Below are positions 4,644 to 58,706 of a stretch of 64,000 bases of DNA, piece by piece; position 1 is the stretch's first letter; each line of letters starts with the position of its first letter. The DNA comes from Sclerodactyla briareus (taxonomy: Eukaryota > Echinodermata > Holothuroidea > Dendrochirotida > Sclerodactylidae). The notes under the pieces are model-generated. The model was not told the origin of the DNA, did no database searches, and saw nothing but the letters and a program-made list of their open reading frames with translations. The DNA lies in the NCBI GenBank assembly GCA_026419785.1, contig JAODTK010005109.1, forward strand, positions 62,001 through 126,000. The letters run 5' to 3'. Position numbers and translations under genes: made by a program.

Positions 4644-5480
4644 GTAAGTATTGCTCTACTGGAAACATTCGTTAGATCATACACCACAAGCCTTGTCCTC
4701 TCCTTGCCCAGAGGCAAGAGAATCTATCTCTGCGATGATGACAGAATCGTTTGTGTTTATGTGTGCATTGAGTCTGTTATGTGCCCTTGTGAACATGACC
4801 ACTGTTCAACCCAATGTAGAGAGCTCATACTCGGCGTGGTGTTTTCACCGGTGTTGGGGCCATAAGGAGTAATGATCATTGTTTTATTTTGGGGCAGATG
4901 CAAGCCCAAGCTCTCTAAAAGCATTGTGAACACATGCATTTTACTGAAAGGTTGACCATATGGAGAGGTGATCCGTATTGTTTTGGAGTCAGGTCTATTC
5001 ACCTACTGGTAAGGTCGCAAAGATAAAAGTTTTGGAAGATCTTGCGGTTCATCCTTTGTATGTTGGTTGGCCATATCAGCGTCCCTGGTCCCTATTATGT
5101 TTTGGGTCATGTCAACATTGACTTTAGGTCAACAATGGTTAGTCTGAAATCCTGGTATGAACAGCCTGGGGCAGTGAGGGCTGCTTCCATACAAAAGCCA
5201 TTTTGGGATTAGAAGCAGCCATTTAGGGTCCGGAAAATGCTTCAATTGATTTCTGAATGTTCACAACTGCTTTGTACAGTATAGCTGTATTGTAGAAGGA
5301 ATGTGATGAGTAAATGTGATTCTAGTTCAGAGTTCAACTTAACCCATATAGGACCAGTACCCCCACGCTGTGCTCAGGGGGGACGGAGAAGTAAGGGGTG
5401 GGGCGGCCAGGCAGGGAAGAAAAAGATTTGGAACACCCACGACCAAGTTCACAGTTGCACGCGCTCTGTTGTCTTACTGA
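4644..5480. other. unassigned intron-like DNA
   Basis: AT-rich sequence without open frames of note and without clear repeats, ending in a G-rich patch (5365-5420) just before the LINE. Confidence 0.5.
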
Positions 5481-6465: not shown

Positions 6466-7689
6466 CATAAATAAGCTGAAGCATACGCGTGGTTTGTCTT
6501 CGCGGGAGCAAGGGTGGAGGATATTTTGAGAGGGTTAATAGTATGTGGAGCTAGGAGGTGGTGGGTTGTCGGATAGGCATATAATCTCCGGGTGACAGTC
6601 AGTGACGCCTAAGATCCGATTGCCGTGAACTGCTGTGCGGCTGAAGTCCACTAGGGTCCGAAAGTCGGCGATTTGCAGCATTCCCCTAGGTTCTAACGGT
6701 TGCGTTGCTGGTATGACGATAGCGGGTCTCAACCGGTGGTTAGAAGTGGAGTGCGCTGAGGAGGAGGGCGTTCAGTTTGTGGATGTTTCGTGTTTCTGGG
6801 GAATGAGGGATCTTTTCGCTTAAGGAATGGTCGTCACCTTAAATGGTGCGGGTGGCTTCAGTCGTTTAGCAATTGTAAATGTCCTGCGTGGAATGGTTTT
6901 TTAACCTAATTTGGGGGCGATGTTTCTGGTGTCCGTAGGCTTACTGGCAGGGTCGTTCATAGTAAGCATCGCACTGGGAGGTCTGGCGAGGTCAACAGTA
7001 GCGATAGATATGTTAGCGTTTTGTTTCTGGTTGCTAAACTTGATTTTGAGAGGCATGATTGCCTCTATCTAAGGAGAACTCGTGCATTTTTCTCTTATGT
7101 GATGGGGAAGCAGAAAGTCAAGACAGATTGGTCCTATGATATTCCGACTCGGGTAAGTACAATCACAGCGATAGCCAGATATGGCTTAAGGTTCTCAGAA
7201 TATTATTTCTCTCTTTTTTTACTCATGATATTTTTGGATAATTTTGGTGACCTAGTGTCGGGGTTTCCTTCTCCGCATAGTATTGGTATATGGTGTTCTC
7301 TTCCGTGTCGCTTTTTTTTAAGAGTAAAGGAGAACTGCAGAAGCTCAATAAGTGATAAAAGCTAAGCTCCTGTCTGAACTGAGTTTAAATCCCCCTTTCC
7401 TTTCTCTTACTTCCTCGGGTAACAACCTAATCCGTGGCGACAATGTTTCGTGCTCGATATTGAACCCTCTCCACAGAACCTAGTGTTATCGTCTTCGTGT
7501 TTGTAACTATCATTGGGCTACGTTATTTCACTGAACACTCAGTCGAACTTAAGGACTGCGAGCTATGGTGCTCGCTCATGCATGGGTTAGGAAAAATGCG
7601 TCGTGTTTCGACTATCTCTTGGAATTTATGGCAGATTGTACATGTTTCATTTGCTGTCTGGTCGACAACACAATGCTGTTTTGATATAA

Positions 7690-8290
7690 TTTTCCTGGCC
7701 CTTTCAGAATCTTTTGACAAGGTTCCTCATGAGCGTCTTCTTTGCTCAAGTTGGAGATCTTTGGCATCGAGGGGAAGGTCCTTAGACAGTGGATTCTGAT
7801 TGCTTCATAATAGAGAACACGATTTGTCATTTAATGGCTGGCTTACCATCCGTCTTCTTGGCAACAGGTCACTAGTGGTGTTCTCCCCAGGATCGGTCTT
7901 GGGCCGTTACTCTTTCGCTGGCGTATATTGACGATACTAAGGTTTTCTGTTCATTCCATGGTTAAGAGGTTCGCAGACGATACCAAGTTGTATCGGGAGT
8001 CGGGGGTTCGAATGATGACTTGCTGAAATTGTTCCAAAGGGATCTGGATATAATTTCCAAATGGTCCTTCGACTGGCAAATTTTTTTCAATGTCGACAAG
8101 TGCCAAGTTATGCCTGTTGGTTTTCCACAATCGCAAACGCTTCCGTCAGTACTTAAATTTGCTCAAAAATAGTCCCAGGCGGTGATTCAGAAAAAGATCT
8201 TGGGTTTGTTTTGATTCTTCTTTGAAACTTCCAAGCAGTGTGCCCCAGCTGCTAGAATTGGTAATTGGATTCTTGGCTTTTGATCAGTTA
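7690..8290 (+). pseudogene. LINE reverse transcriptase domain, multiple frameshifts
   Basis: RT motifs appear in order but in changing frames: LALSESFDKVPHERLL (7696-7743, usually SKAFDKVPHERL); QVTSGVLPRIGLGPLLF (about 7866-7915, usually QGSVLGPLLF); VKRFADDTKLYRESG (7961-8005), the catalytic YADD box with F for Y; then FNVDKCQVMPVG (about 8089-8125). The two aspartates of the ADD box are intact, but stops and frameshifts prevent a full protein. It belongs to the LINE at 5490-8934. Confidence 0.85.
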
Positions 8291-15510: not shown

Positions 15511-16849
15511 ATGAATTTTGTTATTGCTAACCTGTTTATTCAATCCTATGTGTATGTGCCCCCAGTACCAACTAATCTTGTATTTTTTAATGACTCTTGT
15601 TGGAGCATATTAGAAAATTTGAATCAAAACACCTTCAAGAATACCAAAGTGGAACCACAGCGAAAACAGAATCACATAAAGCTGGTATGGACACTAATAA
15701 TAATATTTCCTGATAAATAATAATACTCAAGACTCAATTGATACTCATCTGTCCATTGGTTGTCAATATGTGTTGAATCCAATTATTTGGCTCGAGTGCT
15801 GTGATGTTTAGAAGACCCATTCATCTCAGTAGTTGCACATTTTTTTTTGTTCACTTTCCCTATCCCCTTGTTCACTTACATTTTGTGATTGCTAACTCCC
15901 TCCACTTGCAGTAGATATTGCTTAGCCCCTTGCTTCCATTTTTTTTTTTAATTTGCCCCTGTGTTTTGTGGCTTGCTATTTGTAATGTTTCATCACCACA
16001 TTCTGAATGTTACCGTAGTCATCAGATTTAAGATGGGTTCACCACTGTTAAGAAGTTTAACCAATTAGAAGGTCATGCCAAGAGATAATTTTCGATAATT
16101 ATTAATTCCACACATCTATAGGAAATCCTCCCCCAGTGGTGATAAATGTTGGCTATATTGTGTTTATGTGGTATACTCCAATAAACCACTACCGCCATGT
16201 AAGGGTGACAATGAAACAGGAAGGATTACCTATTGACATGGTTACTCCGTAATCATTGGGGTGGGGTGAAAAACAATTCATTAAAGGACAATTCCAACCA
16301 AAAATATTTAAATGTATATGATTGTGCATTGAAATCATGCCAATCAAATTTTGTTTTATGTTCATAGCATGTTCGGTTATAAGTTCAAAATTTGTAACTT
16401 TTTAGGCCCCTTGGTGATGAAAAGGATGACAAAATCATGGGCAATCAATGTGTTCTGCAATACCCAGCTTGTGAACATGAGAAAAAAACTGTTGAAGAAG
16501 CTAATCATTGGTATTGATGTTCTCTTCAAGCCTATAGGTGTGGTGACCTTCCTGAGTAAGGCTCGAGCTGTAAGACAGTGTAGTTAGTGGGTGTGAGCAT
16601 TGTGCCGGGTGCTTCATCTCATTCGCCTCACTCCATCCAAGTGTATGGAATGGGTTACCCCTAAAAACCCCCCCCCCCCCCCCCCTTATGAGATGACATT
16701 TGTGCATAACATAGAGTCCATACACTCCCAGAATTCAGAGGGCCATAGCTAGTCTCATTGAAAATGGGGTAAGGTAATTACTGTAAAGCGCACAGAAATG
16801 CTGTTATCAACCTTAGGAATGCACCCGTTATGGTAATATTATTGATTTT
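15511..16849. other. unassigned AT-rich DNA
   Basis: It holds T-rich tracts, an open + frame at 15511-15720 with no motif, and a C homopolymer (about 17 bases) near 16669-16686. Nothing else is supported. Confidence 0.5.
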
Positions 16850-17566
16850 GATCAAATCAGAGGATGGAGCTATTGCAATCAGACCAGTGTGTATGTGTGC
16901 CTACCTGCCCACAAGGGATGGATGAAGTTCATACTTGGTATAATGGGTTACCATAATGATACATCAACCCTATGGTTGAGGGTAGGTCAAAGGTCATATG
17001 GGGTCAAGAGAGGCCAAAGTAGGATTATCTTGTCACCTGAAAGTCCAGAAGGCCTGGTCCGATCACATTGAAATTAGGTTTACTGCTCTTTATGGTAGTA
17101 CAGGAACCCTATTGTTTTTGGTGGACAGGGGATGTCAGTTTTCGGAAAACTGGGGAATTGTGAAAAATAGATGATTTAGCAAAATATAGCTTGTTAACAT
17201 GAAACTCGACCACACCCGGATGGATATAGCTCATACGTGGTTATGTGAGTCTCATGATGCGTACATGATTTCTATTTGGGGTGGGGTCAAAGGTATCTGA
17301 GGTCAAGAGAGTCAAAGTCTGACAATCTGTAACTTCATAAGTCCAGAAGTATCTGGTCTGATCAGCTTATGAAACTGGAAATTCCCAAAGGACCCTCACC
17401 TGGATGGATTGAAGTTCAAACTTTGTATGTGAGGTCCCCATTATGAGTACTACTACAGGATCCTATTGTAAATTGTAAAATTTGAAGTTGACAATGCTTA
17501 GCTTGATTCAAGTCAGGATGCAGTCAAGGAATCACAAAGCATTTTGGCTTTTCTGGTATTATATTT
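16850..17566 (+). repeat. family A element, ~2 internal units (+)
   Basis: It contains two diverged units of about 300 bases marked by AAGTCCAGAAG … CTGGTCCGATCA (17039) and AAGTCCAGAAG … CTGGTCTGATCA (17339), plus GGATGGAT … AGCTCATACGTGG. The right end, GCAGTCAAGGAATCAC … TTTTGGCTTTTCTGG, is shared with copies ending at 21385, 48600 and 58706, and in inverse form with those starting at 28065 and 46625. The left end is diverged (AGCTATTGCAATCAGACC then a GT-rich tract). No coding capacity. Confidence 0.75.
16984..16996 (+). promoter_or_regulatory. perfect DR1 nuclear-receptor motif in family A
   Basis: AGGTCAAAGGTCA is two AGGTCA half-sites spaced by one base, the DR1 consensus bound by RXR, HNF4 and COUP-type receptors. 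It lies inside a repeat unit; activity is unknown. Confidence 0.45.
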
Positions 17567-20390: not shown

Positions 20391-20669
20391 ACCAAGATTA
20401 AAAAAGTAATACACCTTGAATCACTTCTCACACTCTTTTAGAATGCTATGGCAAGGTCATATTGCATTAAAATTACTACAGCAAACACTGTTGAGATACA
20501 GAACCCGTTTCTCTATACCTCCAGCTTTCTACAGCCTACCTTCTTCTCTCCTCCTTATTTTTTCGCGATGCCACTCTTCTGCTTTTGGGTCTAGTAATAA
20601 AAAATATTGCCTCTTTATCTCAGTCATATCTGCCAGTTTTTTTCCTGATTCCTGGTTTTAGTCCTTGCC

Positions 20670-21385
20670 GAAGTCAGAAGAACTCTTTGCAGCCATGAGT
20701 GTGTGTATGTTGTATGTATGTGATGTCTAGCATTGTTAACTCAATAACTCGACCCCACCTGAATAGGTGGAGGTCATACTTGGGGTATGGGTTTCCTCAT
20801 ACTGAGTACATGATATCTATTGGGTTTCGGGTCAGAGTCAACTCAGAAGTCTTAAATTCTTGTTAACACGTTAAGACCAGAATGCCTGGTCCGATCCCAG
20901 AATTGGGAGACAGCTCTCTTCATGGGGAGTATAGGACCATACTATTTGGATGTAGACCAAAGGTCATTTTGTGTAAAATTTGATAATTTGGCGAATTTTA
21001 GTTTGTTAACACATTAACTTGACCCAACCTGGAGGGATGGAAGCTTATTTTGTATGTGGGTTCCTCATGATGCGTACATAATCCCCATGTTTTTTGGGTG
21101 ATGGTGCAATCGTATGGCACCTGTATGCACCTTTCTTTGGTGGAGTACATTGGACGCAGGGCCAATTGGGGGGGAAATGGTGATATGTACAAAATGGATA
21201 TTTTGGCGATTTACTCTTTACAACACCTCACCTGGATGAATGAATCTTCCATTGCTTTGCAAGTTTCCCGTGATGAGTCTATGTGATTCACTATTGTAAA
21301 TCTTGTAACCAAGTGAATTGACAATTCCTATCTTGATCAAGACAGGATCAGTCCACTAAGCATTTTGGGCTTTTTCCTGGTTAAA
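20670..21385 (+). repeat. family A element, 2 units (+)
   Basis: The left end (GAAGTCAGAAGAACTCTTTG, CAGCCATGAGTGTGTGTATG) matches the hairpin plus GT-tract end seen at 48341. Two units follow (CTCGACCCCACCTG at 20749, CTTGACCCAACCTG at 21016), with CCAGAATGCCTGGTCCGATC. The right end near 21330-21385 reads CACTAAGCATTTTGGGCTTTTTCCTGG after GATCAAGACAGGATCAG, a diverged family A terminus. Confidence 0.7.
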
Positions 21386-28064: not shown

Positions 28065-30435
28065 TAACTTTAAAGACCAGAAAGCCAAAAAGGCTTAGTG
28101 ATCCTTGATTGATTTCGTCAACCATAGACAGACAAACGGACAAATGGTTACCAGCTCATTAGGGTTGCAACATAATGTCTGACAAATTTCCTATTCTTTA
28201 CCAACCAAAATAAATAGGGTTACTGTACCTGGTAAGGAAAAAGCTACACACGAAATTTCAAGGTGTTCAGACTTTTTGAAACACTTAGATGACCTCAAAC
28301 CCTGACCCGAAACAATAGGTGTTCATGTATCTATGGGAATACACAAACCAAGCATTGAGCTCATTCACCCCACCCTTTAACAAAAACAAAAGGGTCATGT
28401 ACTCCCCTATAGAAAGATTAAGATACACACCTAATTTCAACCCTGATCAGACCAACCGTTGGACTTAACGTGTTGACAAGGTTGTCAGACTTTGACCCTC
28501 TTGTGACCTCAGATGACCTCGGGACTGACCCCAAACAATAGGTTCATGTACTCCTCACGGGGAAAACATACCAGTATGAGCTTTATCCATCTGGGGGGTG
28601 GGGTCGAGTATCGTGTTTACAAGCCAAAGAGTGGCCAAAATATCGAATTTTCGACACAATTTTTCTATTTTAGACCAAAAATTCACCCCGACACTTGAAC
28701 CACAAAACAATTGGGGTTCATGTACTCCCCATAAGAAAAAGCTATACACATAATTTAAACTTGATCAGACCAACCCTTCTGACCTTTTCGTGTTCACAAG
28801 GTTTCACGACTTTGAACATTGGTACCTCAGATGCCCTCTGAACCGACCCCAAAACCATTAGGTGATTACTCATCCCGGGGAAAACACATTACCGAGTATG
28901 AGCTTATCCATCTGGGTGGGGATGAGTTATCGTGTACAAGCCCAAAAATTGGCAAAATATTGAATTTTCACAAATTTTCTATTTTCGACCAAAATTACTC
29001 CCGACCTGAACGAAAACCAATAGGGTCCTGGACTCCCATAAGAAAGCGATACACATGATTCAAACTTAATCAGACAACCATTCTGCGACGATCGTGTTTA
29101 ACAAGGATTTTCGAAGACTTTGACGACCTCTGGTTGACCTCAGATGACCTCTGAACTGACCCCAAACAATAGGGGTCATGTACTCATCATGGAAACACAC
29201 ATACCAAGTATGGCTTCATCCATCTGGGTGGGGCAAGTTATCGTGTTTACAGCCAAAAATTGGCCAAAATATCGAATTAACAAAATTTTCTATTTTCGGA
29301 CCAAAATTCACCTGACCTTGAACAAAAACAATAGGGGTTCCTGTACTCCCCCTAAGGAAAGCTATACACCTAATTTCAACTTGGCCAGACCAACCATTCT
29401 GGACTTATCGTGGTGTACAAGGTTTTCAGACTTTGAACCTCTGGGTGAACCCAGATTGACCTTGACATGACCCAAAAACAATAGGGTTAATGTAATCAAC
29501 ATGGGGAACACACCTACCAAGTATGACGTCATGTATCATCATGGGGAACATCAATACAACTATGAGTTATCCATTTAGCGGGGTCAGTATTGTGTTAACA
29601 AGCCAAAAAGTGGCCGAAAAAATTATGGACGTTTCACAAATTTTCTATTTTTGACTAAAATTCACCTCCAACTATACAAAAAACAATATTGTTCCTGTAT
29701 CCCCATAGGAAGCTATACACCTAATTTCAACTTGATCAGACCAACCATCTGGGACTCATCGGTTTACAAGGTTTTCAGACGTTAACCTCTGGTGACCTCT
29801 GACCTGACCCAAAAACAATAGGTTATGTTTCATCTTGGGGCACACACATACAAAGTATGAGGCCTGACTATCAGACCCGATCAGTTAAGCGTGTTACAAG
29901 CTGGGCGTCATAAACCACACACACACACAACACACATATACTTGTCTATGGGGGATAACGAGGTAGTGTGTAGTGTGTTTTTTGGACAACCCCAAACGGA
30001 TGGGAGGGAACGTACGTATTTCATATCCAATGCCGTTCCCTAGAAAATAAGCCAGGAGATACGACTCTTTACCATGGCACAAGGTATGCTTATACCTGAA
30101 AAAGCTACCGCGAGAAACGAGGTTCTGTAAAATTTAATAACAAAACTTAAACAGTGTGTAAGCCCATGGTTAGACTTTTACCGCATAACGAGGAAGTGCT
30201 CAACTTGATCAAAAACAGCACCATTTCCCCGAGAGGGATGGTGCAGAGAGCGCCATCAAGGGCCCTTTCTAAACGAGGTATCCTCGTGTGCGGTGCTAAC
30301 TCGATTGACCAGGCTGTAAAACAGGATGTGTTACCTCGGTTTCCACCATTCACAAACGCACAAACCACACCCCAACACACCCACACAACGTGACTGCATA
30401 GATTCCTCTGACTTCGTAAAGGAATCGAAAAATCA
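28065..30435 (-). repeat. family A element, ~6 internal units (−), inserted in family D
   Basis: It begins with the inverse of the family right end (CCAGAAAGCCAAAAAGGCTT, AGTGATCCTTGATTG). Units of about 316 bases are marked by GACCTCAGATGACCTC…CTGACCCCAAACAATAGG near 28285, 28504, 28820, 29137, 29445 and 29785. It ends with a CA-rich tract and the hairpin end GTGACTGCATAGATTCC…GTAAAGGAATC near 30395-30430. It is unusually long for its family (one unit at 48.3 kb, two at 17 and 20.7 kb). A ~400-base foreign segment interrupts the CA tract. Confidence 0.8.
29946..30365 (+). other. inserted segment with a coding-like open frame
   Basis: Between two parts of the CA tract of the family A element lies unrelated sequence with balanced composition. 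From 30154 to 30393 a + frame reads V-R-L-L-P-H-N-E-E-V-L-N-L-I-K-N-S-T-I-S, later S-K-R-G-I-L-V-C-G-A-N-S-I-D-Q-A-V. It looks more protein-like than its neighbours but matches no family I know. It may be a processed gene fragment or a chance frame. Confidence 0.3.
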
Positions 30436-31785
30436 ATTGGACTTTGGAAGAGATGCATTTCAAGGTACTAATGTGTGAGATTCCATGGAATTTCATAAAA
30501 CGAGCCATCGGGCCCAAGTGGGACTTGGATCAAAATTCTGAACCCCCCTGGAGGTATGATGTTTCGACCATCATTATGACCCGAATTCAGCACTGGCACC
30601 CAAAACTCGTAAGAGGAGGAAATTTTGCTAATTCCACATTAGGGCCCTCGGGCCCCACACGGGGCCTTGGGGCCTAAATTACTGGGCCACCCTCAAAGTA
30701 GGGCCATGAGACCATCATTAATACCAAACATCAGCAATGTGCAACTGAATGTGTAGGAGAACAAGATTTTGCAGTATTCTAAATAATGGGCTTCTGAAGG
30801 CCCAACAACTGGTCTTGAACCCAAATTTCCTGAACAATTCCAATGGCCTCTACTCAAAGGACCATTAGAGTAACTTTAGGAAACTCAATTGAAGCTTGTG
30901 GGGGAAATGCATTCGAGCTAAGCGGACATTGGACCAAAAAATACTGAATACCCCAAAGGTCTGGCTATTGGGCCATCATATGAGTCTGAAATCGGCACTG
31001 TATAACTACATTTGCAGGAGATCAAGGTTTTGCAGTATTTCACATGATGGGCCCGAGGGCCCAAACTGGGCCGCCGGGCCCAAATTACTGAACACCCCCC
31101 AATGCACTGACCAAGAAACATTACATGTAACGAAGAAATAAATTGAAGCTTGTGGGAGGAAATTCATGCTCAAGCACCAATGGTGAAAATAATAAATTGG
31201 GCCTTAACGGGCCCAAGTCGGACTTTGAACCCAAAAATCCTGAACACTCGGACGGTTATGGCTTATTAGACATCATTAGACAGATGTCAGCCTGTGCAAC
31301 TACATACAGGAGATACAAGATTTTGCGTATTTACGTAATGGGCCCGACGGCCACAACCGGGGGCCCCGGGACCCAAATGCCGGAACAACCCCCAATGGCC
31401 CTCTACCCAGAAACTACATGTAATTTTGAAGAAAATACTGACGCTGTGGGAGGGAGATTGCCATTTCAAGTACTATTGTGTGGAAATTTCATAAAATGGG
31501 ACCATCGGGCCCCCAAGTGGGCCTTGGACCAAAATTCCAAGGTTACGGCTGTTAGACCTTCATTATGACAGAACATTCGCATGTGCCCAAAAAATTGACA
31601 AGAATACATTTTGAAATTTTACAACATAATGGCCTATATTGACCCTTTAATACACCTGACTTTGACCGTTACAAGGTCAGGGACCAGTCTCATGGGTCAA
31701 GGAACATTGTATCCAAGTTTGTCGGAAATCCTCAAGAATGACTGTTTGAGGAGGCAAGAGGCAAGTTAAAACACCTGATAGCTAG
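30436..31785. repeat. family D tandem array, GGGCCC-rich, ~265-290-bp units
   Basis: The block TTTTGCAGTATT…ATGGGCCCGAGGGCCCAAAC…GGGCCCAAATTACTGAACACC recurs near 30768, 31030 and 31322. A second block, CATTTCAAGTACTA…GGCCCAAGTGGGCCTTGGACC, lies near 30455, 31165 and 31455. The GGGCCC…GGGCCC pairs are short palindromes. It ends at a GATG/GATA microsatellite. Confidence 0.75.
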
Positions 31786-45794: not shown

Positions 45795-45905
45795 ATATAT
45801 ACCGCACATACGGACAGACAGACAGACAGACAGACGGACGGAGGACGACGACGGGACGGACGGACAGACCCCCACCAGGACAGACAGACAGACAGACACG
45901 CAGAC
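45795..45905. repeat. (GACA)n / (GACG)n microsatellite
   Basis: ACAGACAGACAGACAGACAG grades into GACGGACGGA and back. The long open frames on both strands across it are repeat artefacts. Confidence 0.95.
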
Positions 45906-46490: not shown

Positions 46491-48340
46491 TGAAGAGGCA
46501 TTGTTGTCTGGCAGCAACAGTCAACTAGGATGGAATGACATCACAACAAAAACAGCTGTCACACAGAATGGTGCATTGTTCACCTGGTGTTGTGACACGA
46601 TAATGCTTGTCCAATGTATATATAACACCACCAAAGCCAAAAGGCATAGTGGTTCCTTGACTCATTTCTGAACATCTATGATTCCTCGACTGATTCTGGC
46701 CTTGATCAAGCTAAGCATTGTCAATCTTACATGCTTACAAGATTCAAAATGGGATCATGTAAGTACTATATGGGGAACTCACATCCGATGTACAAACTTC
46801 AATCCATGTGGAGGTCTTTGTTTAATGAGCTAGAATTTTCCAGAATATCAATTTTTCAACCACTTTCCCCATTGTTTCACCAGGAGTCCATGGACTCCCC
46901 CCCAGAAGAAAGCTGGCATAGGCGATGCATCAACCTGATCAAACCATGCATTCTTTCTGGACTCATTGTGCCAACAGATTATCCACTCAAACATGAACTT
47001 AGACTCTTCGCCCTTTGACTTGACCTAGATAACCTTTGACATGACTCCCAAAATAGGGATAATTAACTGATTGTGGGGATCCACAACCAGCATGAGCTTC
47101 ACCCATCCAGTGGGGTTAGTTATAGTGTTCACAAAGGCTAATGGCAACATTATCAATTTGCCCATATTATTCCACTTCTCAACTGAACCACCCGGCATCG
47201 TACAAACCAAAAACAATGGGTCCTGTACTCCTATGAAAAACTGCATACCAAATTTCCATCTGATCGGATAGGCATTCTTACTTATCGTTTATCATATCTT
47301 CATTATCATCTTCATACTTTTACCTCCTTGAACCTCAGATGACCTTTCAACACCTGACCCACCCAAACATAGGATCATTCTTCATTATGGGAGTCCATAT
47401 CAGTGTTGGAAGACTGTGCCGGCCTCGGCCTCAGGCCATTTTTTGTGCGGCCTCGTGGACAATATTTTTCTGGCTATTAAAATAAATAAAAATAAAACAT
47501 CTAATTTCACAAAATGATGCTTTTGTTTCTGAATTACACTGCGACAGGACCTTGAACTACCGTAGCTACCGGTATTTTCCCCCCCCACCCATGACACATA
47601 TCACGAGACTGCCGATAGAATGTACTGACCCTTTGCACTCGCCCGCCGTTCGCCATGCAAGTCCCCAGTGCAGTGCCAGAGTGCCGGTGCTTAGCAAGCC
47701 AGCTGGCCATAGAACAACTGCAGGTGTAATTTACGTGGCGCACTGCCCAGTGCAGATAGACATACGCATATGTACTAGCCAGAAGTAGTTGGAACAAAAC
47801 TGCACGTACTGCAAAGCCCCCATGCCCCCGATGCAATGTTGAATGTTATAGTGTCATTCCATCCTAAGAACATTTCCCAAAATTGAAATGGGATGGGGGT
47901 TCGGTTTGCATGGCTCCAGCCAAATTGACCGTCCCAGCATCCAATACGGTATTTTCGGAGGGATTTGTTCCACCAATTTGGCGGTGAATGTATTTTTTTG
48001 TTAGTATGCAATGATGAGGAGAGATGATCGTCCCTCGTATGTCCTAGTAGGAGTTGCGAGGTGAAATTTTAGTCTCCAGTGCATAAAAATGTGCCTAAGC
48101 CTGGACTACTAAAATACAAAGAATGTAGTCTCTGCTGCAGATTGTGGAATGTATTTATTATTTAATATACATTTATATTTTGGCAGGGACATTGGACAGT
48201 CCTGCCTAAAGTACTGCGTCTCATTGCTTGAATTGCAATTTTGTATTTAAAAAGATTATTTAACACTATTTAGTATATCTGTCAAATTAGCCTAACTGAC
48301 ACTGTAGTCTGTGCATAAGAAAATCACACCAAATTATTTT

Positions 48341-48600
48341 TGATTCCTTGACTTTAGTCAAAGGAATCTATGCATCATGACAGTTGTGTGTTTGTGGGTG
48401 TGTGCGTGCGTTGATTGGCTACGGTGAACCACAAGACTCGATCCCATCTTAGTGGATCAAGCTCATACTTGGTATGTGGGTTCCCTATAATGAGTATGTG
48501 ATCCCTATGTTTTGGTTTCAGGTCAAAGGTCATTTGAGGTCAACGAACTTCAAGGCAGTCAAGGAATCACTAAGTCTCTTGGCTTTTTGGTTTGGTTTTG
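48341..48600 (+). repeat. family A element, single unit, nested in the hAT-like element
   Basis: This is the smallest complete copy. The left terminus is a near-palindrome (GATTCCTTGAC, TTTA, GTCAAAGGAATC) followed by TATGCATCATGACAG and a GT-rich tract. One unit follows (GATCCCATCTTAGTGGATC, AAGCTCATACTTGGTATGTG), and the right end is CAGTCAAGGAATCACTAAG then TCTCTTGGCTTTTTGGT. It is about 260 bp and defines both ends of the family. Confidence 0.8.
48520..48532 (+). promoter_or_regulatory. perfect DR1 nuclear-receptor motif in family A
   Basis: AGGTCAAAGGTCA followed at 48536 by GAGGTCAA. Same position in the repeat unit as the site at 16984. Confidence 0.45.
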
Positions 48601-49287
48601 TCGTTAGGTTTGAGCTACTGTAATGTATTGCTTATCTAAAATCTTGTTCTTAGCAATTACTAAATATCTGAGGTGAATGGTGCAGGTAACTGATAGGCCA
48701 TTAGAAAACATTAATACTGTGCACCGTTTCCCCTGCACTGGTGAAACAGCATCCTCAATGTAAAACCCTGTGGTGGCAAAAGCCTTGTCTGTAAATTGTT
48801 TTTTCTGCTTGAGGTGGTGGTAAATTTGATGGAGAGTATAACCTCTATAGCAAATCTCACAAGCATTAACATTTTTTACAACTACATTCATTCAGTACTG
48901 ACTTCAAGAATAAAAGTTGTTGCATAACAATTTGTGTTCTCATTTTTGGGACTTTAAAAACCTTTTTGTCACCATTGTTATCATATGACCAGCTGTAGCC
49001 ATGGGAAGACAAAACAAAGTTATTCAATGTTTTTTAACCTGGTAATTTAAACTTTCATGCTATAATATTATTGCCCGGCCTCGGAAGGTGTGGCCTCGGC
49101 CTCGAGGGGTACGGCCTCGGCCTCGGATGCAGCGGTCTCGACTACACACTGGTCCATATACCAAGTATGAACTTCATCCATCCAGGTAAGGTCAAGCTAT
49201 TTTGTTAACAATACTTGGCGTCACATACACGCACAAAACACACAGTCATGACTGCATAGATTGCTCTGAATTTGTCAAGATAACAGA

Positions 49288-52025
49288 ACTCAATTTCGCA
49301 TAGTGAGTCCTTGCCTTGTTTTTTTTCCCCTGACATGTTCCCCTTACAAGGCTGTGGCATCACCATGATGATTCAGCTATATCAAACCCTGCAAGATGTG
49401 TGTTCCAACTCAAATCTGAGCAACTGACACAAAACGAACAAATCACCTGCAATATTTACTAACCGCAAGAGATGCTTACTGCTTTTGACCAAGGTCAAAA
49501 AGTCACTGGGGCACTTGAAGTAAAATACTGAAAACTAAATCTTGTAAGTAATGTATCTTGAAGAGAGAAGGTGAAGTTACGATTCATAACCATGATGTCC
49601 AACGTTTCCATTCAGTGTGGGAAGTACCAGCGACCGTAACACTGAGTCGGCAGACTGCAGGCAAGGCTAATGATTGATCACTTAGCGAAATTTATCACTA
49701 ATAGTAACTGGTGTGGTCAAAGCAGATAGATTGAATGAAGTGGCAGTTCTTTTGAATCGGACGACCAACATCATCAACATTTGTAAAAAAAAGAATCTCC
49801 TTTTTGGGGGTATTGTGTGGGGAAAGGGAAGTGCATTCTAGCATAGGCCTACATATGGTAATTGCATCCTCCACGACCCTGGACAAGGTGAGTCATTGTA
49901 GGTACATTCAGTGTCTAATAGCATGGTGTCTCACATATGTTGGTCATTGTACACTATGTCGTTAATCACTAATGTGATGAGGGGTGAAGTCATGCCAGTC
50001 AACAATTCGTACAGCGAGTAGTCTGTGGTCTTTTAAAAGTGACTGTGGGTGTATAATTTTTTCCATTATTTCAGGCACCAAAGTGACTGAGGGGTGCATA
50101 ATTTGTTGGACCCACCTAAATGCCAAGACTCACTTTGTCTGGAGTACAAGGGGTGGGTCATGCAGGTTGAAGTGATAACTGTTCAAAATACTTGTATCAA
50201 TAGCATTTTATCAGTCCTTCAAATGTTATTGCCATTTTTAGGGTCATACTTTTCACAAGGCTTTCAAAATCACATATTCCCTCCTACAGTGGTGGGGTAT
50301 ATGGCCCACCCCAGGCCAGCACATCCCATAAAATATATTCTGGATGCATGGAATAATACAAATAGATATAGAACAGACAAGATCTTTGCAATTTTCCAGT
50401 GTTATATAATATATATATATATATATATAATATATATTATAGCCCATGTGGAGAATTTCTGAACTTATGTGGGCTCATTCAATGTCGATCCAATAAGACT
50501 TCTGGCCAATTGTTTAAAATGTGATATCCCGGCAACCACATTCCCCAAATAGTCACATCAGTGACTGTCAACACAGATAGATAGGCACTGGGGACGAAGA
50601 GGGATATGTTATATACTCAAACCCCTACCCATTCTGCCGGGGTTGGTACAGGGAATGCCCTCACTTTTTGCTCAATAGCGAAAAATGCCACAAAAATTGC
50701 TGTGCCCTTACCCACTTTCAGAAGCTTACTTGCCCCTTGCTTTCTTCTTACTCCAACTCACTAACCCTTCACTGGCTGCTACACACACCGAATTAGGGCT
50801 TGTCTATGAAGAGGTAAATAAACAGGTAATAAGACCAAATAGTCAGTCCTGCCTGTTGCAAGTAATTTACATCCTGGAAGTGAGCTTAGAGAGAAGTGTG
50901 AACGTTAAATGTGAACAACAGATAATCGGGTGAACTTGTGCAGTGACCACAGAGAATAATTGGAATAAACACTCTCACTCCTCTGAGCAATGAATGTCGG
51001 GACGGCAGCTAGTCAAAACTTATTGTGTGTTGACGGCTCACGTTCACACAAACAAACTTGTAAGAGAATAATTCTTTTGGGGATTGGGCCGACCAATGTT
51101 GACCAGCCAAAAATTAAAGGCCTATTATAGTATACACAAACGATTTGCAGGCAGTGGTTGAGAGGATTGTGGCCTAGCATAGGGGTCTACTTGAATTCAG
51201 GACAGTTCCTGGTGTGCATTTCTGCTGTAATAACTAGTAAAAGGGGGAAATTTGAAAGATCCATATCACCGTTTTCAATTAATGTAAAGCAACAAACTTG
51301 GATTCCCCCTGGATTAAAATATATAGGCCTATGGAAAAAATTGCCAGTTTGTCCCCCCCCCCCACCTCGCACCCTCCAATTGATATCCACTGGTTACTAA
51401 ATCCAATTTGGCACCTACTTGAGAAAAAGCCACGGGATGTAAATGTAGAATATAACACAAAATGAGCGGATGTTGTACTACACCAGGAGAGAGTTTCTCG
51501 CCTTGCAATAGGAATTCTTTTTTCAATAAAGCCGTGATGCAGGCTTCAAATAGGGCGTACATTTTTCCCCATTTTCAGAAGCTGCCCATGAAACCTGTAG
51601 GGGGGGGGGGGTGCATGCAAGACCAAAATTACCACCCCCACCCCGAAACAGTACACCACTACTGATCAGGAGGTGGGTACATATAGGGTGCGTCACTAAT
51701 GATAGTCCAATACGCAAAAATATCAGGAATAATAATAAAATGACAATCAAAGAATTTGTACTGTCTCCCACTGGGGGAAATATTTGTATTGGGGAGGGGG
51801 GGGGTGGAAGCACCCCAGATTTTATGAGGGGGAAACCACAAACACTTTGGTGGTCATAAGTTATAACACTAAATGAGAGGAAGTATACGCAAGGAGAGGC
51901 GCTTTTGCCTTGCAATTAGGAATTTGTCCAAAAATGCGTGATTGCAAGGCTTCAAATATGAGTACCTTTTTCAATTCTCATAAGCTGCTATGAAACCTGG
52001 GGGGGGGGGGCGGGGGGGGTGCGTG
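49288..52025. repeat. long inverted repeat, left arm (~2.7 kb)
   Basis: The arm matches the reverse complement of 55415-57727 along its length. Paired landmarks: GTGGCATCACCATGATGATTC with GAATCTCATGTGATGCCAC (57667); ACCGTAACACTGAGTCGG with CCGACTCAGTGTTACGGT (57389); GGCCAATTGTTTAAAATGTG with CATATTTTAAACAAATTGG (56555); ATATAGGCCTATGGAAAAA with TTTTTCCATAGGCCTATAT (55707); ATGAAACCTG plus a G run with a C run plus CAGGTTTCAT. The inner part (51455-51640 and 51865-52020) is also duplicated in tandem. Open frames in it have no motifs. Confidence 0.85.
50404..50446. repeat. (AT)n microsatellite in left arm
   Basis: TATATATATATATATATATA at a point where the right arm (near 56610) has ordinary sequence, so it arose after the arms separated. 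Confidence 0.9.
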
Positions 52026-53313: not shown

Positions 53314-54049
53314 GTAAGTGTGTGCAATTTTCCTTAATAATAAAGCCAGTTCAGAGTTAGTTATTGAGAAGGTAATGCTGAACAACCAGCAGTTCGACGT
53401 TGAAGTTACAGTGTGCAGAACGATCTTTTGAAACTCCCCCCTGCCCGAAATTAAGGTTCCATTCAACACAAAACTACACAGATGTCCCCCATTTACTGTC
53501 AACAATAACATCCGAAAAACATGGGATGAATTGATTGCGTTTTCCAAATATCGTGACAGTTTAGAATTAGCCGTAAAATATGCTATGGGGGGAATCCGAC
53601 AGAATCTTGTCTATTCGCCGAACTGTTCGTTAGTGAGCTGCGCACTTAGAACTAACAAACTGGCTATTAACCCCTTAGTTTTAGGGGGGGGGGGGGGTTA
53701 GCTTGGTAGCAAGATTAGGAGTGGGCCATCAGTGATATGGTGAGTTGGTTTGGCACAAAGTACAGGATAATGGGATAATAAATATTCCAGGTCATTCAAT
53801 GTGTCTAATTTTGCTTGATTCATGCAACTTTGTAAGTTAGGTTTTTTATGATATATATTGGGTGTGGTCCACCATTGACCCTGAGAATGAGTGGGTCACT
53901 GGAGAAGTAATTTAACTATCTATCGCTCAATTCGGCAATTTACATAAAGCTTATAAAAGATACTCTTTTGGTAGACATTGAACAATCATTCCTAATGAAT
54001 TTGTAATTTGCTCTTTTTGATCCTTGCCAGCGGCAATAGGAATCTAGGT
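53314..54049. other. inverted-repeat spacer, intron-like DNA
   Basis: Holds a G homopolymer at about 53683-53697; nothing else recognised. Confidence 0.5.
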
Positions 54050-55140
54050 AATCAAGTTGGTTTTTTGTGCGTATGTGTGTGTGTTGTGTGTTGTGTGTGT
54101 GCGTCTGTGTTGTGTGTGTGTGTGTGAACCCCTTGTCAGCACGATATCTAACGGACGCAAACTGTATCCACAGTTCAATTAGGTATTGGGTTGCCATATG
54201 GGAGGAATGACCCCTATTGTTTTGGTGCCCGTTCAAATTCATTCAAGGTCACGAGAGGCAAAGTTTAGAAAAGTCTTGTCGCACGATATCTAAACGAACT
54301 CGAGTATCTATCAAGTTCAAATTGGGGTATGGTGGGTAGCATGTCAGGGTGAGATATGAACCCTATTGGTTTTTGGTGTCAGGTCCCGGTCATTCGAGGT
54401 CACCATCGGGAATCGTCATATATCTCTGTAACGAAACATTTTGGAGGACTAACGTAATGGGAAGTTTTATGTTCGTCTGGGTGAATTACATCTGGTGACC
54501 ACTTTGACTCATTTGACCTTTGACCTTTTGACATCATTTGACCTCTTGACCTGGTGATTTTGGCCTGCTTTTTTGTGTTGGCCGGAAGTAGTCTTGTTGA
54601 GGACAAACAAAAAGTCGGATGACACTACCTACCCGATTAATCTTATCACAAGCTATCTCAAGAATGTGGAAGGTCAAGACAGCTAAAATGGTCATAGATC
54701 TCGGCAACGAAACATTTTGGAGGCTTGTCGTAATGGAAAGTTTAGTTGTTCTGAGTGAATACCATCTGGTGACGGACTTGACCTCGTTGACCTTTTGACC
54801 TAATTTGACCTTTACCTGTGCTTTTGCATGCTTTTTTTTGTGTTGGCCTGAAGAGCTGTTGAGACAAAAAAAAAGTCAATAATACTACCATACTATGATA
54901 CCCTTATCACAAGCTATTCTCAATGAAGTTGCAAGACAGCAAAACACGAAATGTGGATAAATTGGACATTTGAAATCGCTCGTCAGCTGATATCAATGAA
55001 TGCAAGTATTCTATAAAGTTCAAATAAGGGTGGGGATTGTAAACAGATGAAGATTTGACCCTAGTGTTCGTGGTACTTCAGGGGCAAGTCATTCCAGGTC
55101 ACCATAGGACAATCCTTATATCTCTGCAACGATTCATTGT
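54050..55140 (+). repeat. family A-related array (+) with GT tract
   Basis: It starts with TAATCAAGTTGG and a (GT)n-rich tract (54067-54125), like the left end of family A. Units follow with GCACGATATCTAA (54136 and 54279), AACGAAACATTTTGGAGG (54430 and 54706) and TTTTTTGTGTTGGCC (54569 and 54835). The unit is about 275 bases in the central part. The right end is not the standard family terminus. Confidence 0.65.
54514..54527 (-). promoter_or_regulatory. DR1-type half-site cluster
   Basis: TGACCTTTGACCTT followed by TTGACATC and TTGACCTCTTGACCTGG gives at least four TGACCT-like half-sites within about 45 bases. Confidence 0.4.
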
Positions 55141-55414
55141 ACAGATGAGAACAAGCATATAGCCAACCCAAACACATATTTCCCGGTTGAAGGACAGTAA
55201 CAAATTCTCAATGGTCTTTTATGGTGATTCCTATATGTCTGAGTAATGGACTAGCACCAATATATTTCCCCAGTGAAGACAAGGACAGTAACCAAATTCT
55301 TGAGTGTTCATTTTAAATTTCATTTTCCTGATAAGTATTGGACTAACACCAGTGACCAGCCTAGCCTATATGTACCTCCTGATCAGTAGCAGGTGTGTTA
55401 CGGGTTGAGTGGCA
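55141..55414. other. inverted-repeat spacer, inner right part
   Basis: Repeats the words CAAGGACAGTAACCAAATTC near 55190 and 55282 about 85-90 bases apart, a short tandem duplication. No gene. Confidence 0.4.
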
Positions 55415-55430
55415 ATTTGGGTCTTGCACG

Positions 55431-55462
<32 letters not shown>

Positions 55463-57727
55463 AGGTTTCATAGGCAGCGTTGAAAAATTTGTCAAGTGTT
55501 AGCTCTATTTGAAGCCTGCATCAACGCATTTATGACCAAATTCCTAAATTGCAAGGCAGAAACGCCTCTTTGCTATACGTCCTCCTTATTTAGTGTGAAA
55601 TTTTACATTTAATCTCTTTGGCACTGTCAGGGGAGGTACCAAAAGAGATTAGTACATGGAGATCAATGGGTGGGTGCGAGGGAGGGGGGGGGGACAAACT
55701 TGCAATTTTTCCATAGGCCTATATATTTTCCTCGAGGGGGGAATGCCAATGTTTGTTGCTTGCAGTTAATGTGAAAACGGTGATATGATCTTCAGAATTT
55801 GTCCCATTTGGACTTAGTTATTACAGCGAATTGAACACCCAGGAATGTCCTGATTCAATTGGAACACCTATGGCTGGGCCACATCCTCCTCAACTACTGC
55901 CTGCTTGTGTACGTGTATACTATAATAAGCCCTTTGTTTGGCTGGTCAAATTGGTCCGGCCCAATCCCCAAAAGGATTAATCTTTAAGTTGTGGTGTGAG
56001 CTTGGAAGCCAGTAAAAACACAATCAACTTTTTGACTGCCTGTCAGACATTCAGGTGGGGAAAATGGTACTGGCACTGGGCAATGCTCAGCGGACTTTTT
56101 GCGAGTGGTATTCCAATATTCTATGTGTGCCACCAGGGTATAATGCATTATTGATTGTTACATTTAAAGTTTAAACACTTCTTTCTAAGCACCTTTCAAG
56201 GATGTAATACTTGAAAGGCAAGGAATGACTATGGGTGTATTAAATGTTTATTACTTTTATTAGACAAGCCCTAATGAGGGCATTAACTGTGGTGTGTAGA
56301 AGGCAGTGCGCGGGTAGGAGTGGGAGGGTAAGAAAGGAACAGAAGCAAGGGTCAAGGAAGCTTTTGAACGGGGGAAGGGCACAACATTTTTGGCATTTTT
56401 TGCTATTGAGCAAAACGTGAAGGCATTACCCGTAACCCAGGGAGAAATGGTAGGGGTTTGAGTCTATCAAATATCTGATTCTTCACCAGTGCAATCTATC
56501 TGGTGTTAACAGTCACATAATTTGACTATTTGGGAAAAGCGGTTGCCGGGAAAATCATATTTTAAACAAATTGGACAGGACGTCTTACTGGATCAACAGT
56601 AAATGAGCACATTAGAAATTGCAAAGATTCTTGTCTGTTCTATCATCTATTGTATTTTGTATCATGCAGCCAGCTAGTTGTTATTGGGAGGTGCTGCATG
56701 GGGTGAGCTATATATCCCACAAGTGGGGGGAAATATGTGATTTGACAAGGCCTCGTGAAAGTTGACCCGAAAAATGGCAATAAGACATTTGATGCCTGGT
56801 TAATAAAATGGCTATTGAGACAAGTATTTTAAACAGTGATGCACGTGTCAATTGCATGATGGGCCCACCCCTGATACCCCAGACAAGGTGAAGTCATTGA
56901 CTTAGGTGGGTTCAACAAAATGTGCAACCCTCAGTCACTTGCGCCTGAAAAAATGAAAATGAACAACCACAGTCACTTAAAAGATCACAGACTACTCTGC
57001 TGTACGAATTGAAAAGATTTACTGGCAATGATTACCCCTTAGTCACATTAGTAATTATGACATATGGTACAATGACCAACATGTTGAGACACCCTGCTAT
57101 TGGACAATGAAAGTACCTACAATGACTCCCTTGTCCAGGGTAGTGGTTGGATGCAATTGACAATATCTATGCCTGTATGCAGAAGGCACTTCTCATTTTC
57201 CCCCACCATATCTCCACATTTTTTTGTTTTTTTTTTTTTACAATTGTCCGATGATGTTGATGATGTGGTCGTCCGATTCGAAGGACTGCCACTTCATTCA
57301 GTCTATTCTCTTTGACACACCAGTTTACTTATGAGTGATAAAATTTCGCTAAAGTGGGATCCTCATCATTTAGCTTGCCTTCCAGTCTTCCGACTCAGTG
57401 TTACGGTCGGTGGTACTTTCCACACTGAATGGAAAACGTTTTGGACCTCACTGGTTATGAATCTTAACTTTACCTTCTCTCTCCAAAATACACTTACTTA
57501 CCAGGTGTATTTTTCAGTATTTTCCTCAATTTGACCTCAGATGACGTTTTGACCTTGGTCAAAAGCAGTAAGCATCTCTTGCGGTTAGTGAAGTTTGCAG
57601 GAGATTGGTCGTTTGTGGTTCAGTTGTGGTTAGTTGGCAACACCATCTTGCAGGGTTTGATATAGCTGAATCTCATGTGATGCCACGCCGAAAAAAGGCA
57701 AGGAATCACTACGCAAGATTGCGTTCC
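55415..57727. repeat. long inverted repeat, right arm (~2.3 kb)
   Basis: This is the reverse complement of the left arm (49288-52025), with many small indels and at least one larger length difference caused by the tandem duplication inside the left arm. It begins with a C homopolymer of about 32 bases (55431-55462) opposite the G runs of the left arm. Outer edge: GGCAAGGAATCACTACGCAAG near 57698, opposite CGCATAGTGAGTCCTTGCC at 49297. Confidence 0.85.
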
Positions 57728-58127
57728 TTTTGACTGATAAGATTGGGTTAGTTGAAACATACAACATGAAACAAGACAAAAACTGATCTTGTAGTTAACT
57801 GACACAATGAACATGAACTCACTTTTTTTGACATATATACTATTAACCATTTGGTAATTCAATATTTCAGCTTGTTGCGGCCTGAACATCCATCCTCACC
57901 TCTCCTGCTGCAGTGTTGCTGATGACCCTGGTTAGAAAACAGCAACCGATTTCGACAGTAAGATTGGTTAAGTGTTTGGTGATTTCCCTCATCATGTTCA
58001 CTACCAGTGGTTGGGATAGCGTGAGTGGTTGAGATGAGGAGGGCTTGGTAATTTGAGTGTAATGCTTTAAAGTTTATAGGCCAAATTTGTAGTTGAATGA
58101 TGCATAACATATTCCCCCCCCCAACAG
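57728..58127. other. unassigned DNA
   Basis: Open minus frames at 57620-57889 and 57859-58110 have no motif. A C run (58113-58122) forms part of the acceptor-like tract before 58128. Confidence 0.4.
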
Positions 58128-58238: not shown

Positions 58239-58706
58239 TTTCAAATCCACACTTGATCCCACCGGGATTATAAGGCTCATATGGTATGTGTGTTCCCTAT
58301 GATCAATAACGCGAACCTTATTGTTTTGGTGGTCAGGTCAGAGATTTTCTAGGTCCCCCGAGAACAAAATCTGAAAACCTGTAAACTTGATAGTCCAGAA
58401 TATGGGTGTAATCCGCTTTCTTAGTACAGAAACCCTATTGTTTTTGGTTCAGGTCGGGCGAATTGTTGTCAAAAATGAGATTGGTGGGAGTAGTTACTTG
58501 GGCCATCATGGCCTATAAACGTAACTTGACCCCACCGGGATTATTAATAAAGCTCATACCTGGCATGTGTCTTCCTATGAATGACTAAAATTTTATCAGG
58601 TCAGGGGATAGTCAACGTAGGTTAATTTTTGTCTGTCCTCGGGTCTGGCCATAGATTGTCGGAATGGTCAAGAATCACTAAAGCCTCTTGGTTTTCTGGT
58701 TATTAT
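58239..58706 (+). repeat. family A element, ~2 units (+), left end missing
   Basis: Units start CTTGATCCCACCGGGATTATA (58252) and CTTGACCCCACCGGGATTATT (58524), about 272 bases apart. The right end GGTCAAGAATCACTAAAGCC, TCTTGGTTTTCTGG matches the family terminus. The hairpin left end is not seen, so it is truncated at the left. Confidence 0.7.

Follow-up and report, generated by a model that had tools for sequence, protein, structure and literature searches.

The window analysed here, a 64-kb stretch of the genome of the sea cucumber Sclerodactyla briareus, contains a dispersed family of old, decayed elements, family A, whose copies have constant ends that enclose an internal array of 1 to 12 half-units (Table 1). 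Copies lie on the forward strand at 17, 20.7, 48.3 and 58.2 kb and on the reverse strand at 28 and 49/46 kb, and all of the evidence on the family comes from this one window of a single genome. In the best-preserved copy, c48, GATTCCTTGACT is followed by a spacer, AGTCAAAGGAATC, a short stretch, a GT tract, one half-unit, AGTCAAGGAATC, the letters CACT and a small stem-loop, ending in ...TTTTTGGT. This order of parts is kept, in worn form, by c28.

Table 1. Positions of family A copies, related elements and associated features in the window.
Feature	Position	Strand	Remarks
c5, weak related left end CTCTCCTTGCCC...GGCAAGAGAATC	4698..5156	+	GT tract, weak half-unit match
c17	16844..17557	+	Decayed 5' end; A B A and a partial A (by eye); 3' subterminal repeat intact at 17522-17533
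c20	20647..21382	+	Decayed ends; A B and a short A, with a partial one by eye
c28, full family A element as read	28076..30426	-	5' end at 30426; end motifs, empty site
c28 5' subterminal repeat GATTCCTTTACG	30415-30426	-	
c28 inverted copy AGGAATC	30401-30407	-	
c28 GT-rich microsatellite-like tract	30357..30388	-	
c28 array	28178..29861	-	12 alternating half-units (6 A, 6 B)
c28 3' subterminal repeat ATCAAGGATC	28100-28109	-	One base lost
c28 3' end	28082..28109	-	Subterminal repeat and stem-loop AAGCC-TTTTT-GGCTT
Paralogous empty site of c28	31384..31538	+	Repeat in the same window; junction 31431/31432
c49/46, family A copy	46627..49284	-	5' part 49152-49284, 3' part 46627-47400
hAT-like insertion	47401..49151	-	1751 bp; splits c49/46, contains c48
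c48, best-preserved family A copy	48342..48591	+	End motifs, half-unit match, folding
c48 5' subterminal repeat GATTCCTTGACT	48342-48353	+	
c48 inverted copy AGTCAAAGGAATC	48356-48368	+	After 2-base spacer
c48 GT-rich microsatellite tract	48384-48410	+	
c48 single A half-unit	48436-48554	+	
c48 3' subterminal repeat AGTCAAGGAATC	48557-48568	+	Inverse of the 5' one
c48 3' stem-loop	48572-48585	+	
B2	49285..52019	-	3' subterminal repeat GGCAAGGACTC at 49305-49315
B1, related element	54019..57731	+	Long GT tract, weak half-unit matches
B1 5' subterminal repeat GATCCTTGCC	54019-54028	+	With inverted copy
B1 3' subterminal repeat GGCAAGGAATC	57697-57707	+	
B1 3' stem-loop ACGCAAGATTGCGT	57711-57724	+	
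c58	58252..58700	+	A B and a partial A; right end

A preliminary description of this DNA had proposed a right end common to six places, and a profile model finds it at all of them (17.5, 21.3, 28.1, 46.6, 48.6 and 58.7 kb), with E-values from 1.5e-10 to 1.1e-24 for the same copies that built the model. When the seven modelled right ends were left out in turn, five were recovered at E<0.001, while the 20.7-kb end reached only 0.23 and the 57.7-kb end, which belongs to the related family B, 8.6. The proposed left ends with a GT tract behind them also held up: five built the left-end model and four were recovered when left out, the exception being the 17-kb end. This model found two further left ends, at 49.28 kb (E 1e-6) and, weakly, at 4.7 kb (E 0.039), and recognised none in c58. 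The 4.7-kb element, whose right end was not found, is related to family A and did not figure in the earlier list of copies. A GT-rich tract was read behind all seven left ends.

The remaining end signals were assessed copy by copy. Subterminal inverted repeats at both ends, 11-15 bp long in HINEs, exceed chance in two of six copies, c48, where the end-to-end inverse match covers 13 letters (p=0.0018), and B1, where one base is lost (p=0.048); the same match is not above chance in c28 (p=0.35), c20 (0.35), c17 (0.73) or c49/46 (0.60). The 5' subterminal repeat folds on a nearby inverted copy in four of seven left ends (c28, c48, B1 and c5), this fold being absent in c20, c17 and c49. Tested alone, the 5' hairpin is above chance only in c48 (p=0.0053), with p=0.053 in c28, p=0.08 in c5 and values of 0.18 to 0.59 in the other four, among which the c49 sequence was cut off-register; the refolded c49 5' end has no terminal hairpin. 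A small stem-loop lies directly behind the 3' subterminal repeat in six of eight right ends, at the same spot and with differing stem sequences (AAGCC/GGCTT, ACGCA/TGCGT), and none of the eight 3' hairpins tested singly was above chance (p=0.15 to 0.99). The right ends of c17, c28, c46, c48 and c58 read ...GGT, not CTRR.

The array between these ends was detected at 28.1-30.4 kb as a tandem repeat of period 312 with 3.7 copies, 76% matches and 11% indels, and its 310-bp consensus consists of two half-units, A (142 bp) and B (168 bp), which form a divergent dimer and have a mean length of 155 bp. The A-B dimer scores 59, a value reached by none of 1000 shuffles (mean 29.7, highest 54). A and B alternate along the arrays, with 12 half-units in c28, A B A B and a partial A (read by eye) in c49/46, A B A in c17, A B and a short A in c20, A B in c58 and A in c48; partial last units were read by eye or, for c58, by self-comparison. 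The earlier picture of ~300-bp units in variable number is therefore right in that the array is real and its length varies by copy, but the unit is a divergent A-B dimer, the "1" counted at 48.3 kb is one half-unit and the 28-kb copy comprises 12 of them. In c17, c20, c28, c48 and c49/46, the arrays that have a left end and a recognised first half-unit, that half-unit is A.

Excluding pairs with <50 aligned columns, identity among half-units within c28 is 72.5% for A and 73.1% for B (15 pairs each), and between c28 and other copies 65.3% for A (50 pairs) and 59.9% for B (30 pairs). Higher identity within c28 is what would be expected if its array grew within that lineage. In c49/46, with a single pair of each type, identity is 55.3% for A and 43.2% for B, no higher than between copies.

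Evidence that family A moved as a unit into other repeats, as had been suggested, comes from c28, the one copy for which an empty-site alignment of the kind proposed earlier was obtained: its paralogous empty site lies in a repeat, and the insertion is seen there without duplication beyond 1-2 bases. On the element strand this T-rich site reads TATTTT^CTTCAAAA. At the empty site the right flank scores 82 on its own and the joined flanks 102, and none of 19848 random stretches, whose maximum was 26, equalled the left-flank match of 32; by itself the left flank matches best elsewhere, at about 30.70 kb, with a score of 52. The related local repeats that host c28 span 30730-31540 (30730-30912, 30991-31167, and 30923-31240 with 31219-31538). 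With element boundaries placed by eye, the flanks are rich in T, averaging 6.14 T per 10 on seven 5' sides (reached by 0 of 5000 random sets) and 5.29 on seven 3' sides (1 of 5000) against a background of 2.89.

The 46.6- and 48.3-kb copies had been listed as separate copies. We found instead that one element, c49/46, starts at 49.28 kb and has the 46.6-kb copy as its 3' part, and that the 48.3-kb copy, c48, is nested within an insertion that splits this element. The 5' part of c49/46 stops within half-unit A at ATATGGAC, and half-unit A resumes with the same 8 bases at 47400, giving an 8-bp duplication at 49152-49159 and 47393-47400; once joined, the two sides match half-unit A at 69-74, as against 31 and 51 separately. 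The insertion begins and ends CAGTGT...ACACTG, and we call it hAT-like because of this hexamer and the 8-bp duplication; long terminal inverted repeats were not found, CAGTGT being all that its ends have in common. GGCCGAGGCCG-rich stretches occur near both of its ends. Since c48 lies inside the insertion and the insertion inside c49/46, the family A copy c49/46 came first, the hAT-like insertion entered it next, and c48 arrived last.

The earlier list of family A copies also lacked a related family, B, which occupies 54.0-57.7 kb and recurs at 52.0-49.3 kb. Its inverted copies, at 49354-52019 (-) and 55262-57686 (+), are 73-80% identical over ~2.4 kb, have HINE-like 3' ends and are apparently noncoding. 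We infer that both B1 ends belong to one element; for B2 the 5' end was not found. The subterminal repeats of the two families differ together, GATCCTTGCC with GGCAAGGAATC in family B versus GATTCCTTGACT with AGTCAAGGAATC in family A. The 3' end of B2 is immediately followed by the start of copy c49/46, and a family A copy also lies ~0.5 kb behind B1. Family B was considered as an autonomous partner and rejected for want of evidence, its frames being short and the matches between its two copies short and spread over several frames. A run of 32 C occupies 55431-55462.

Among the 150 longest of the 187 stop-to-stop frames of at least 70 aa in the window, a Pfam scan returned four families at E 0.0046-0.0088, none of them Rep, helicase or endonuclease and none a transposon family. 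One frame, at 7464-7799, contains SFDKVPHERLL and has no Pfam match at E 0.01; we take it to resemble a decayed non-LTR reverse transcriptase. An exact pattern scan of a genome-contig collection with a 20-base unit motif gave 0 stretches. In a viral-contig collection, exact scans with an 18-base unit motif and a 5'-end motif gave 3 and 4 loci, respectively, and in these seven neither the left-end model nor either half-unit had a match at E up to 1. Six weak right-end-model matches in L004, L005 and L007 (E 0.39-0.76) were taken as chance.

Because the same parts recur in the same order and place, although the signals are weak copy by copy, family A very probably belongs to the HINEs, non-autonomous rolling-circle transposons of the Helentron type, here with a short satellite-like array as cargo. 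Such elements are protein-less mobile DNA of a kind already known from oysters and flies, related to Helitrons and variously called non-autonomous Helentron, DINE-1, pearl or Cg_HINE; for family A the Helentron-type label is a putative one, judged from end anatomy. Its anatomy matches the HINE or DINE-1-like layout described in PMC7492417 and PMC4067079, and hairpins occur at both ends (6/8 3' ends, 4/7 5' ends); the preliminary view of a one-sided terminal hairpin in an element without a named superfamily therefore fails on both points.

The likeness is broad, as judged by description. Like family A, Cg_HINE from Crassostrea gigas (PMC7492417) has a 5' subterminal repeat (11-12 bp in Cg_HINE) with an inverted copy (7-12 bp, set off by a short spacer), then a microsatellite, a variable stretch, a satellite-like array, a 3' subterminal repeat and a 3' palindrome; both insert into T-rich targets and into other repeats without target duplication, and both form families with common ends and differing repeats. 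The microsatellites differ, consisting mostly of 4-base motifs in Cg_HINE and being GT-rich here. The DINE-1/HINE elements of Drosophila and a mite (PMC4067079) likewise combine subterminal inverted repeats, a 5' inverted copy, a microsatellite, optional central repeats and a 3' stem-loop with T-rich targets that are left unchanged. In pearl/CvA from Crassostrea virginica and DTC84 from Donax, up to six ~160-bp repeats lie between fixed ends (PMC7492417, PMC5139131), a length close to the half-unit mean; unlike these, the family A array has a two-part A-B unit and reaches 12 half-units in one copy. At 45813-45898 the window also has a GACA/GTCT microsatellite, whose type of motif has been reported for oyster HINEs.

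Other classes of element share some of this anatomy. A Helitron2-type element, whose Rep/helicase would lack an endonuclease domain, would combine palindromes at both termini with terminal inverted repeats that are asymmetrical (PMC4067079), which the ends of family A resemble; we nevertheless regard it as very unlikely, as the combination of microsatellite, satellite array and 5' inverted copy is one described for DINE-1/HINE. Still less probable is a miniature inverted-repeat element (MITE) or foldback element that a cut-and-paste transposase would have mobilised. Inverted repeats do lie near both ends of c48, and pearl was originally classified as a MITE, but these repeats are subterminal and about 12 bp, and the c28 empty site lacks the clean duplication that the hAT-like insertion displays. 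It is barely conceivable that fragments of an ordinary satellite array were scattered by recombination, tandem and satellite-like as the core is, when the same left and right ends lie outside the array at unrelated loci and c28 is seen against its empty site. A canonical Helitron (5' TC ... CTRR 3', A^T target), which also moves by rolling circle, has a 3' hairpin and leaves no target duplication, deserves next to no weight beside five right ends in ...GGT and the T-rich flanks and c28 site.

What has been published on HINEs and Helraiser suggests how family A, if it is a HINE, may have moved. Its ends would be read by a Rep/helicase that a Helentron at another genomic site provides, rolling-circle transfer would stop at the 3' stem-loop, and insertion would take place into T-rich DNA; the stop-signal role of the 3' hairpin is carried over from Helraiser (PMC4778049). 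The number of units may shift by gain or loss within the array, and the ends would stay constant because movement needs only the ends.

A more specific scenario, which we consider unlikely, is a HINE lineage with a fixed A-B higher-order cargo, in one phase from the left end and reaching 12 half-units in one copy, together with a tendency of one HINE family to insert at another's 3' end. If true, this would show, as it happens, how a satellite forms within a rolling-circle transposon. For the oyster HINEs an autonomous partner could not be assigned, and which autonomous Helentron moves satellite-carrying HINEs is described as an open question in PMC7492417. Recognition of the seemingly unnamed anatomy as the published HINE layout allows the locus to be annotated, and a reading of this genome could serve both the question of the Helentron partner and that of how transposon cargo becomes satellite.
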